NCBI RefSeq assembly: GCF_021646685.1 | Contig: NZ_JAKJHW010000004.1 | Coordinates: forward strand, 186,001-250,000 | Length of the DNA stretch: 64,000 nucleotides | Source: Pseudalkalibacillus salsuginis | Lineage (GTDB): Bacteria > Bacillota > Bacilli > Bacillales > Fictibacillaceae | Reading direction: 5' to 3' | Shown here: positions 46,241-52,480 of the stretch, in pieces | Numbering within the stretch: the first letter of the stretch is position 1 | Layout of the letters: the number at the start of each line of letters is the position of its first letter | The notes under the pieces: model-generated | What the model was told of the DNA's origin: nothing | The model's input: the letters and a program-made list of their open reading frames with translations, nothing else | Databases searched by the model: none | Position numbers and translations under genes: made by a program

Positions 46241-47503
46241 ATGAACGCAGAAATCATTGCAATAGGCTCGGAGTTGCTATTAGGCCAAATCGCAAATACG
46301 AATGGCCAATTCATTTCTAAACAGCTGGCCGATCAAGGGATCAATGTGTTCCATCATTCGGTCGTCGGAGATAACAAACAACGACTTATTTCAACGATCC
46401 AGATCGCTGAAGAACGCGCTGACCTATTGATTTTCACTGGCGGGCTTGGTCCTACAAAAGATGACCTCACGAAAGAAACGATTGCAGAGCACCTTGGTCT
46501 CCCGCTGATCGAGAATAAAGAAGCGATGGATTTCATTGAAGGATATTACGAGAAAATTCAACAACCGATGTCAGAGAACAACCGCAGGCAAGCCCTTGTA
46601 TTTGAAGGAGCTGCTGTACTGCCGAATAACTATGGGATGGCTCCGGGGATCGCTTTGCAAAAAGAGAACAAGACGTATGTTCTTTTGCCTGGGCCGCCGA
46701 AGGAAATGAAGCCGATGTTCACCGATTTCGCGATTCCATACATACAGCAATGGAGAGGGGAAGATGTAGAGCTTATTCTCTCACGTGTCCTCCGTTTCTA
46801 TGGTATCGGTGAATCGGCACTTGAAACGAAATTGCTGGACCTCATCGAAGGACAGACGAACCCGACGATTGCACCTCTAGCGGGCAATTACGAGGTGACC
46901 TTGAGATTGACTGCCAAGTGTCAGACCGAGGATCAAGGTAAAAGAATGATAAGTGAACTCGAAAAGGAAATTTTTGATCGAGTCGGCCGATTTTTTTATG
47001 GCTATGATGACACTACACTTTCCTCCGAAGTCTTCAATACATTGCAAAATAATAAGCTAACAGTTTCTTGTGCTGAAAGTTTGACAGGGGGGTTTTTCGG
47101 ACATGAACTGACGAAGCAGCCTGGGGCAGGGCAGATTTTACAGGGCGGCATCATATGCTATCAGAATGAGATCAAAAAGAATCAATTGAAGATCCCCGAA
47201 AAAGTGTTGGATGAAGATGGCGCGGTAAGTGAATTGTGTGCGAAACTGATGGCGGAAAATGTACGGGAATTATTTAAAAGTGATTATGGCGTCAGTTTCA
47301 CTGGTGTGGCAGGTCCGAATGAAATGGAAGGAAAGCCTCCCGGCACAGTATATGTCGGAATCGCCTCCCCACAGGAAACGAAGGTATATCCGCTTAAGCT
47401 TGCTGGTGGCCGAAATGCAGTAAGGACCCGTACAGTCAACTATGGATTGTTTTATTTATTGAAACAACTTACAGGACAGCAGATTTCACAAAAAGGCGAA
47501 TAA
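46241..47503 (+). CDS. cinA: CinA family nicotinamide-nucleotide amidase / competence-damage protein
   Basis: A 420-residue two-domain protein: N-terminal MoaB/MogA-like (COG1058) domain with IAIGSELLLGQIANTNGQ and TGGLGPTKDD (about 68-77), and a C-terminal CinA amidase domain (from about 260; SCAESLTGG, GVAGPNEMEGKPPGTVYVG). Family members act on pyridine nucleotides; in competent bacteria cinA is co-transcribed with recA. The ATG at 46241 follows GGAAGAGGTGAG; an earlier in-frame start lies within the pgsA terminator. A LexA-type box overlaps its stop codon. Confidence 0.95.
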   Translation: MNAEIIAIGSELLLGQIANTNGQFISKQLADQGINVFHHSVVGDNKQRLISTIQIAEERADLLIFTGGLGPTKDDLTKETIAEHLGLPLIENKEAMDFIEGYYEKIQQPMSENNRRQALVFEGAAVLPNNYGMAPGIALQKENKTYVLLPGPPKEMKPMFTDFAIPYIQQWRGEDVELILSRVLRFYGIGESALETKLLDLIEGQTNPTIAPLAGNYEVTLRLTAKCQTEDQGKRMISELEKEIFDRVGRFFYGYDDTTLSSEVFNTLQNNKLTVSCAESLTGGFFGHELTKQPGAGQILQGGIICYQNEIKKNQLKIPEKVLDEDGAVSELCAKLMAENVRELFKSDYGVSFTGVAGPNEMEGKPPGTVYVGIASPQETKVYPLKLAGGRNAVRTRTVNYGLFYLLKQLTGQQISQKGE

Positions 47504-47510
47504 ATGTTCG
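47497..47510 (+). promoter_or_regulatory. LexA (DinR) SOS box upstream of recA
   Basis: CGAATAAATGTTCG matches the Bacillus consensus CGAAC-N4-GTTCG with one mismatch. It overlaps the cinA stop and lies ten bases before the recA -35. Confidence 0.75.
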
Positions 47511-47519
47511 TAAAAAGTA

Positions 47520-47548
47520 TTGGCAAAAGGTATAAAAAAAGGTATGAT
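47520..47548 (+). promoter_or_regulatory. Sigma-A promoter of recA
   Basis: TTGGCA (47520-47525), 17-base spacer, TATGAT (47543-47548), 30 bases before the recA ATG and just after the SOS box. Confidence 0.7.
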
Positions 47549-47577: not shown

Positions 47578-48186
47578 ATGAGTGATCGTAAAGCTGCATT
47601 AGATATGGCTTTAAGACAAATAGAAAAGCAATTTGGTAAAGGATCTGTCATGAAGTTGGGAGAACAGACGGAAAGTCGTGTTTCCACAACTTCAAGCGGA
47701 TCACTCGCTGTGGATATCGCACTAGGTGTAGGTGGTTATCCGCGCGGCAGGATCATTGAAGTCTACGGACCTGAATCTTCAGGTAAAACAACTGTAGCCC
47801 TGCACGCGATTGCAGAATCACAACGGAATGGCGGACAGGCAGCATTCATCGATGCTGAACATGCTCTTGACCCGGTTTATGCTGAAAAGCTTGGTGTGGA
47901 TATCAATGAACTGTTGTTATCTCAACCAGATACAGGGGAGCAGGCGTTAGAAATTGCTGAAGCCCTTGTACGTAGTGGAGCTGTAGACATCCTGGTCATC
48001 GACTCTGTCGCTGCCCTGGTACCGAAAGCTGAAATCGAAGGGGAGATGGGTGACTCGCACGTCGGACTTCAGGCTCGTTTGATGTCACAGGCGCTTCGAA
48101 AACTATCGGGAGCGATCAGCAAATCAAAAACAACAGCAATCTTCATCAACCAGATTCGTGAGAAGGTCGGCGTCATGTTCGGAAAT
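47578..48186 (+). CDS. recA: RecA recombinase, 5' exon (residues 1-203)
   Basis: RecA forms the nucleoprotein filament for homologous recombination and SOS induction. This exon encodes 203 residues from [22 protein letters not shown] through Walker A GPESSGKT (about 64-71), Walker [11 protein letters not shown] (about 139-148) and into loop L2, ending [14 protein letters not shown]. The CDS is join(47578..48186, 48517..48945), giving 345 residues, close to the usual 348. Without splicing, translation would add QRLVA and stop at 48202, removing part of the core and the C-terminal domain. AAGGAG precedes the ATG. Confidence 0.97.
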
Positions 48187-48516
48187 CAACGATTAGTTGC
48201 TTGATCCGTAAAGGATTGAGGGAGTTTACTATGGGTTTCCCATGCTAGTGATAGCATGTTTAAAAAACCTTGTGAACCTTATTGCCTAAGGGTGTGGCAT
48301 TTTAATGCTGCTAACGGTGAAGCCCTCCAATAGATGGGTAATACCGTGCCAAGCCTATTATAGGAAGGTGTAGAGACTACCGAAAAGGGCTCTCCGAAGA
48401 GTTAACTTAGTAGGGTACGGCAGAAGATAGGCTACTGCTGGAAGTGCAAGGCTCTCAGGTAAGATTGAGATGAAGAGATAGTCCACACTATAGAGATGGA
48501 AAATCTATAGAGAATG
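48187..48516 (+). ncRNA. Group I self-splicing intron in recA (330 nt, no ORF)
   Basis: The break sits between codons AAT and CCA. P1: exon end GGAAAT (48181-48186) pairs with guide GTTTCC (48235-48240), with the required U-G at the splice site. P10: TGG (48232-48234), directly 5' of the guide, pairs with CCA (48517-48519). P2: CATGCT/AGCATG (48241-48246, 48253-48258). P4: ACGGT (48313-48317) with ACCGT (48343-48347), within P- and Q-like segments. P7: GACTA (48375-48379) with TAGTC (48479-48483), inside R (AGAGACTA) and S (AAGAGATAGTCC) motifs. The intron ends in G at 48516. No homing endonuclease fits in 330 nt. Group I introns in recA are known from B. anthracis and relatives. Confidence 0.95.
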
Positions 48517-48945
48517 CCAGAAACAACTCCTGGGGGACGTGCCCTCAAATTCTATTCTTCTGTACGTCTAGAAGTACGTAGAGCAGAAACCTTGAAGCAA
48601 GGCAACGACATGGTCGGAAACAAGACACGTATCAAAGTCGTCAAAAACAAGGTTGCGCCTCCGTTCAAAACAGCAGAAGTAGATATCATGTACGGCGAAG
48701 GGATTTCAAGACAGGGTGAAATCCTCGATATCGGGTCTGAAATCGATGTGGTACAGAAGAGTGGGGCTTGGTACTCCTTCAATGGCGACAGGCTCGGTCA
48801 AGGACGCGAGAACGCAAAGCAATTCTTGAAGGAAAACGAAGCGATCGGAAATGAAATCTATCAACAGATCCGCTCTTATTATCAATTGAACACTGAAACG
48901 GCTGCAGCCAAAGAAGACGCAGGAGAGCAAGATTCTCTAGTATAA
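48517..48945 (+). CDS. recA: RecA recombinase, 3' exon (residues 204-345)
   Basis: Begins [24 protein letters not shown], the conserved second half of loop L2 and following strand, and continues through [22 protein letters not shown] and [11 protein letters not shown] into an acidic C-terminal tail. An ATG three bases upstream (48514-48516) falls in the intron and has no ribosome binding site, so this part is made only as the continuation of exon 1. A terminator follows within 15 bases. Confidence 0.96.
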
Positions 48946-52355: not shown

Positions 52356-52480
52356 TTCGCGAGACTCCTATCGGAAAAACGAACAAGAAGAGACCCCACA
52401 GCGACCTACAATTTAAGGATCTTCGACTAAAGTCTACCACGTCCTGTGGGGAACGTTAAAGCCAGCATATCCTGTGAAGA
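52356..52480 (+). repeat. Degenerate Bacillaceae repeat (CGCGAGACTCC...CCTGTG type)
   Basis: Reads CGCGAGACTCCTATCGGAAA...AGAAGAGACCCCACAG...CTGTGGGG...AGCATATCCTGTG; CCCCACAG (52394-52401) and CTGTGGGG (52444-52451) are inverted. This matches, with decay, a repeat common in Bacillaceae intergenic DNA. Confidence 0.55.

Follow-up and report, generated by a model that had tools for sequence, protein, structure and literature searches.

The recA locus

In the window, by which is meant the whole 64,000-nucleotide stretch of Pseudalkalibacillus salsuginis DNA that was analysed, the recA gene is divided into two exons by a 330-nt insert, which lies at a codon boundary that we write as MFGN/PETT, the slash marking the point of insertion (Table 1). 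Exon 1 aligns with positions 1-201 of the RecA model in a profile comparison, and the open reading frame of exon 2 aligns with positions 202-320 of 321. The insert starts directly after the AAT codon and its last base is a G; the frame of exon 1 runs for five codons into it before reaching a TGA stop. Upstream of the gene a sigma-A-like promoter can be read by eye, as can the sequence CGAATAAATGTTCG, a candidate LexA-like box. Further along the window Rfam places a Bacillaceae-1 sRNA at 52411-52478 (43.2 bits).

A search of the genome with exon 1 returns one recA, the only other match being 27% identical with an E-value of 8e-4. The original prediction had described a self-splicing group I intron with exact boundaries in a single recA. 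On boundaries and copy number it holds, with open exon frames, precise MFGN/PETT junctions and no second intact copy found in the genome. Within one genus of the order, 5 of 10 genomes have two copies of recA; G195, G220, G267, G308 and G366 have two full-length copies each, the second being 81-82% identical to the query.

Table 1 Features of the recA locus (window coordinates, all on the + strand)
Feature	Position	Remarks
LexA-like box CGAATAAATGTTCG, upstream of recA	47497..47510	read by eye
Sigma-A-like promoter TTGGCA, 17 nt, TATGAT	47520..47548	read by eye
recA exon 1	47578..48186	residues 1-203, last residues MFGN
P1 5' strand, exon GGAAAT, U at -1	48181..48186	identical in 14/14 introns
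Group I intron (IA-like), 330 nt, without endonuclease gene	48187..48516	
Tail read in frame from unspliced RNA, QRLVA and a stop	48187..48204	TGA 48202-48204
Last codons of the lost homing endonuclease gene, EFTMGFPC-stop, shared in part with the guide sequence	48222..48248	C-terminus as in intact ORFs of G129, G236
Internal guide sequence GGGTTTCC, P1 with exon 1	48233..48240	GGGTTTCC in 14/14 introns
P2 hairpin	48241..48258	helix 1 of hand-drawn structure
P3 5' strand CCTTG	48268..48272	3' strand CAAGG 48447-48451; helix 2
P7 5' strand GACTA	48375..48379	3' strand TAGTC 48479-48483; helix 9, invariant in 14
P9 hairpin	48488..48510	helix 13
Terminal G of intron	48516..48516	G in 14/14 introns
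recA exon 2	48517..48945	starts PETTPGG

Anatomy of the group I intron

The insert is a group I intron, whose splicing we infer from sequence. Introns at the same MFGN/PETT codons form a set of 14 that includes the window and comprises 13 bacterial members and one viral member; the 13 introns besides that of the window come from genomes of the order in 12 cases and from a viral contig in one. All 14 retain the U before the 5' splice site, which in P1 pairs with a G of the guide, together with the terminal G and the guide sequence. Among 51 fetched loci whose site is intact, some of which repeat a genome, 13 have GGAAAT, the exon strand of P1. A candidate P10 can also be picked out by eye, in that the TGG preceding GTTTCC is able to base-pair with the CCA of exon 2.

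A structure of 13 helices, running from P2 to P9 and including the P3 and P7 pairs, was drawn by hand for the 14 introns and contains a P3-P9 core with the P3/P7 pseudoknot. Across the set 97.8% of cells are paired, against 32-42% when the structure is slid along the alignment, and two-sided changes are found in 27 of the 63 helix pairs, against a mean of 8.0 in shuffles, none of 500 being as high. These changes are carried by P2, P6a, P7.1, P7.2, P8, P9 and a pair of hairpins that lie between P3 and P4. From P3 to P7 there is hardly any variation, P3 and P7 themselves included, so that it is the remaining helices which the covariation supports. P7.1 and P7.2 (helices 10 and 11, between P7 and the 3' strand of P3) show two-sided changes in 8 of 10 pairs and fit subgroup IA, of which two such hairpins are the mark. 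When folded alone the window RNA is predicted to be only mildly more stable than its shuffles (z -1.86, with 3 of 100 as good), in a type of prediction that cannot hold the P3/P7 pseudoknot.

The identification as a group I intron is therefore borne out by the conserved U, G and guide and by the two-sided changes. The covariance-model scan that had been put forward as a check gave a divided answer: Rfam RF00028 matches 48252-48510 with an E-value of 4.2e-7 in a 701-nt scan, but the score of 34.7 bits falls below the gathering score of 50 bits, a curated cut-off that denotes no structural feature. The intron is consequently absent from an Rfam scan of the whole window at the gathering threshold.

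A lost homing endonuclease

Three of the 13 bacterial introns (G129, G236 and G251) contain in the loop of P1 an open frame of 219-225 codons, which in all three ends F-T-(M/L)-GFPC. The product from G129 resembles, over 92 residues and with an E-value of 5e-16, the PDB entry 3r3p, labelled 'Mobile intron protein', which is the entry of I-Bth0305I. Shorter remnants of the frame survive in other introns, with 70 codons in G019, 13 in G207 and G255, and 8 in G041. The viral contig L322 has a recA with the same intron site and an open endonuclease frame, again in the loop of P1, and its intron core is 73% identical over 292 columns. Across the order the endonuclease gene is present in 3 of 397 genomes.

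The window intron, as was originally stated, has no endonuclease open reading frame left, and no endonuclease of this type was found elsewhere in its own genome. An intact endonuclease gene, by which a mobile EDxHD intron may be recognised, is thus found in three relatives and in L322 and is missing in the window, where the last codons, EFTMGFPC and a stop, are what is left. These codons overlap the guide sequence, and constraint on the guide may in part account for their persistence. The window intron is a relic of a mobile intron. Among the INPHARED phages there is no match to the endonuclease at an E-value of 1e-5, and none better than E 2; eight records have partial matches to the intron, in other genes, the best with an E-value of 1e-6.

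Distribution and the question of transfer

By DNA similarity the intron is found in 9 of the 397 genomes of the order, always at the MFGN/PETT site of recA, and four further carriers came from a family search. Of the eight genomes in the genus of the window, four have the intron, two have an intact recA, and in the remaining two different inserts occupy Walker A. Of this last pair, one also has an insert one codon upstream of the window site, whose 363-aa open reading frame matches Vsr weakly, under the cut-off. Several stages of a homing cycle can be seen at one site in sister genomes, from a full endonuclease through part of one and its last codons to an empty site.

In 77 of 78 pairs of carriers the intron cores resemble each other more closely than the copies of exon 1 do, a difference that constraint could explain. 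Resolution of the intron tree is poor. Forcing G041 and G251 together on the exon-1 data is not rejected (p 0.31), though the exon-1 pair of G019 and G251 is rejected by the intron data (p 0.006); the trees are no more than suggestive of horizontal transfer. Exon identity was compared for a rise near the intron, and none was clear; a search of plasmids gave no match.

Other inserts in recA

That recA is an insertion hotspot had not been foreseen in the original prediction, which had also missed the endonuclease remnant and the tail described below, its reading of the intron being correct. With full RecA as the query, interrupted genes are found in 22 of the 397 genomes, these having been picked by weak best E-values; the pieces in G230 lie on two contigs, and G233, a weak match, was left out. 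Group II-like inserts, judged by eye from a start of GTGCG or GTGTG, follow DAEH, GEQ, FGNP and ALKF. Loci that are group II-like by their first bases are L088, L091, L093, L097, L100, L101, L102 and L105, and four genomes have two in one gene.

At two further positions, site A at Walker A and site B at MFG/N, the inserts form a related pair (L038 in G028, L039, L087, L089, L103 and L106), which neither RF00028 nor our own covariance model R1 recognises. Because they have a U before them, a G at their end and a P7-like pair that covaries by eye, we take them to be candidate divergent group I introns. The recA of G028 consists of three exons.

In at least seven viral recA genes an insert follows M(F/Y)G, one codon off the window site, its last residues being HN and the next ones SPETT. 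Among six of these inserts tested, the Pfam intein splicing model matched five at E<=1e-5, two of them above its cut-off and a third above the cut-off of another Hint model. The intein-like inserts are those of L228, L268, L284, L297, L299, L308 and L320, two of them being short at 187 and 153 aa; that of L299 has a weak Hint model match, and L320, outside the six, has a stop in exon 2. The RecA codons around MFGNPETT accept group I introns, group II-like inserts and inteins.

The tail of the unspliced frame

What would be made from RNA in which the intron remains? The product here would be RecA 1-203 with QRLVA at its end. Such short tails that terminate in Ala resemble ssrA degrons, and this feature of the unspliced frame is new. 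We assume that an ssrA-type degron requires small hydrophobic residues at the C-terminus (LAA, LVA, VAA), by which a protein is fed to ClpXP, and QRLVA ends in this way; the tag of the organism's own tmRNA, GKENNNFAVAA, ends AVAA.

At MFGN/PETT (site C) QRLVA is found in the window and in four more of the 13 distinct introns. The remaining tails are QQLVA, QRIVA, RYMVA, QLVVA, QLQTA, QHKAS and, in the virus, QLEVAA, with QFTLGFPC as the exception. Site B has KLAA, KLAV and KIAA, and site A has ELSA (twice), ELVA and ERIA, with EM as the exception. A scan with R1, the model of the site-C introns, finds introns in 63 of 299 genomes of the order; gene names of the reductase and flagellin loci were verified on four examples. 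For the B12-dependent ribonucleotide reductase (nrdJ site 1) the frame continues RRG/KVA, RVA, KSA, KVVA, KAA, KLA or KTA in 9 of 11, the exceptions being E and K. Flagellin site 1 reads RDVDYA/LAA and variants, Ala-ended in 13 of 14, and another flagellin site reads AML/EGIAA and variants in 5 of 5. At flagellin site 1 all 7 loci scanned with Rfam are confirmed as group I introns, and at nrdJ site 1 all 5 are, three of these five above gathering.

Several other intron sites reach a stop at once or after one codon. At yet another flagellin site the intron opens with a copy of the native C-terminus SNQMPQGVLQLLR, from which full-length flagellin could be made on unspliced RNA; introns starting SNQMPQGVLQLLR-stop are those of L391, L392, L395, L397, L400 and others. 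The organism's own nrdJ locus, L443 (G000:C7:283700-287600), contains two group I introns over the Rfam cut-off (70.0 and 65.5 bits) and a further frame break, NPCG/RVA-stop, matched by no model and followed by a 173-aa open reading frame of no known family.

Over 12 sites with 85 distinct introns, reading the true frame gives Ala-ended tails in 45 of 85, against 2 of 147 when the wrong frames are read (Fisher 8e-22), the sites having been picked by gene motifs after a first look at the tails and the weak matches G459 and G473 being left out of the count. By site, 6 of 12 are Ala-ended against an expected 3.7% (p 2e-6), with sites treated as independent although recA sites A and B share one intron type. 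As a control, the group II-like recA inserts are Ala-ended in 1 of 12 (G273, site E). One of the 12, the nrdJ3 site (NPCG/), has a frame break at which Rfam finds no intron; when it is removed the true frame has 44 of 82 Ala ends and the wrong frames have 2 of 141, with 6 Ala-ended sites of 11. Of 80 loci, 28 lie outside the 12 sites, some of them identical copies. Their endings include a further LAA (L401) and an FVA (L448), flagellin tails of the native type, EMPL in four cases and several more that do not end in Ala; with ten outside ends added by hand, 7 of 22 sites are Ala-ended (p 1e-5). The tail pattern is strong, and the function in degradation that it suggests is putative.

The broader proposal is that group I introns of bacterial protein genes encode an ssrA-like C-terminal degron in their first codons, through which the unspliced product would be destroyed. 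Such tails would have arisen at several recA, nrdJ and flagellin sites, with other introns stopping at once or copying the native flagellin C-terminus. We hold this proposal to be evenly balanced between true and false. Somewhat less probable, and still a serious contender, is that the tails are a by-product of constraint on the RNA, whereby hairpins must form at the 5' end and an early stop keeps ribosomes off the core, as such stops are explained in published work, the Ala ends having no function. Flagellin site 1 tails (TTAGCTGCCTAAGCAGC...) allow, by eye, a GCUGC/GCAGC hairpin whose loop includes the stop, and at recA site C every pair of a CAAC/GTTG hairpin is present in 10 of 14 introns. 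All 12 Ala-ended introns at site C have GCT as their last Ala codon. A GCT directly before TAA or TGA is shared by the three recA sites, and in-frame stops are viewed as aiding intron folding according to the review PMC3984707. However, the site-C hairpin is broken in 4 of 14, and in three of these (G033, G019 and G345) the tail still ends LVA, KAS or QTA. At flagellin site 1, moreover, each of GCT, GCC, GCA and GCG is found as the last Ala codon, and at nrdJ site 1 both GCT and GCA are. By inspection no DNA context common to the recA, nrdJ and flagellin tails was noticed, and the contrast between true and wrong frames also speaks against a by-product.

Proposed explanation

We propose that the single recA located in this genome harbours a group I ribozyme, which would have to excise itself for full-length RecA to be made. 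Its ancestor would have been a mobile intron that homed into the MFGN/PETT codons with an EDxHD-type endonuclease and was probably also carried by phage recA genes. The endonuclease gene has since been deleted here, except for the last codons that overlap the guide sequence of the ribozyme. Unspliced RNA would yield RecA 1-203 followed by QRLVA and a stop, a tail that most likely marks the truncated protein for degradation of the ClpXP type. As a whole, this account of a self-splicing relic intron with its endonuclease lost, and with a tail that is most likely a degradation mark, is in our judgement highly probable. The tails also hint at how a gene may tolerate a selfish intron when its truncated protein could poison a filament.

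Splicing might instead act as a regulated switch that links RecA output to stress or growth, as the LexA-like box upstream of recA could suggest; inteins in similar genes are likewise discussed as conditional in PMC5874633. We consider such a switch unlikely, since the intron is patchily distributed (4 of 8 genomes within the genus, 9 of 397 across the order), as expected of a mobile element, and nothing noticed in the intron suggests a sensor. That the insert does not splice, recA is decaying and the cell lives without RecA is barely credible despite the stop that breaks the frame, and this reading is rejected on the strength of exons that are both RecA-like and open, by exact junctions, by compensatory changes that keep the helices and by an exon 1 that is open in 13 of 13 bacterial carriers.

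Comparison with known systems

The relic intron may be set beside the RecA inteins of mycobacteria, M. leprae among them, and of phages. The viral inserts lie one codon from the window site and would be removed by protein splicing, whereas RNA splicing is expected here. With I-Bth0305I, whose intron lies in a phage recA, the likeness is through the endonuclease of the sister intron in G129, which matches the 3r3p chain, the window intron being without the gene. I-Bth0305I is the type of the EDxHD family according to PMC3943268.

A group I intron in recA is already known in kind. The review PMC3984707 cites a Bacillus anthracis example (Ko et al. 2002), likewise from a member of the Bacillales, together with work by Tourasse and Kolsto on introns in the B. 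cereus group, and names recA and flagellin introns plus an in-frame stop. Among the matches listed in a literature search of titles and the starts of abstracts, with most subscription papers outside its coverage, no work joins group I introns with degrons, ssrA, ClpXP or proteolysis. The nearest parallel to the tail is yeast HAC1, where the 5' end of an intron that stays in the RNA encodes ten residues which serve as a degron (PMC6627864). There the intron-encoded degron of the unspliced product is reported, and in recA its counterpart is putative; HAC1 is also eukaryotic, with other splicing and other proteolysis. With this reported parallel, the tail idea ties RNA splicing to the quality control of proteins in a way that can be tested.
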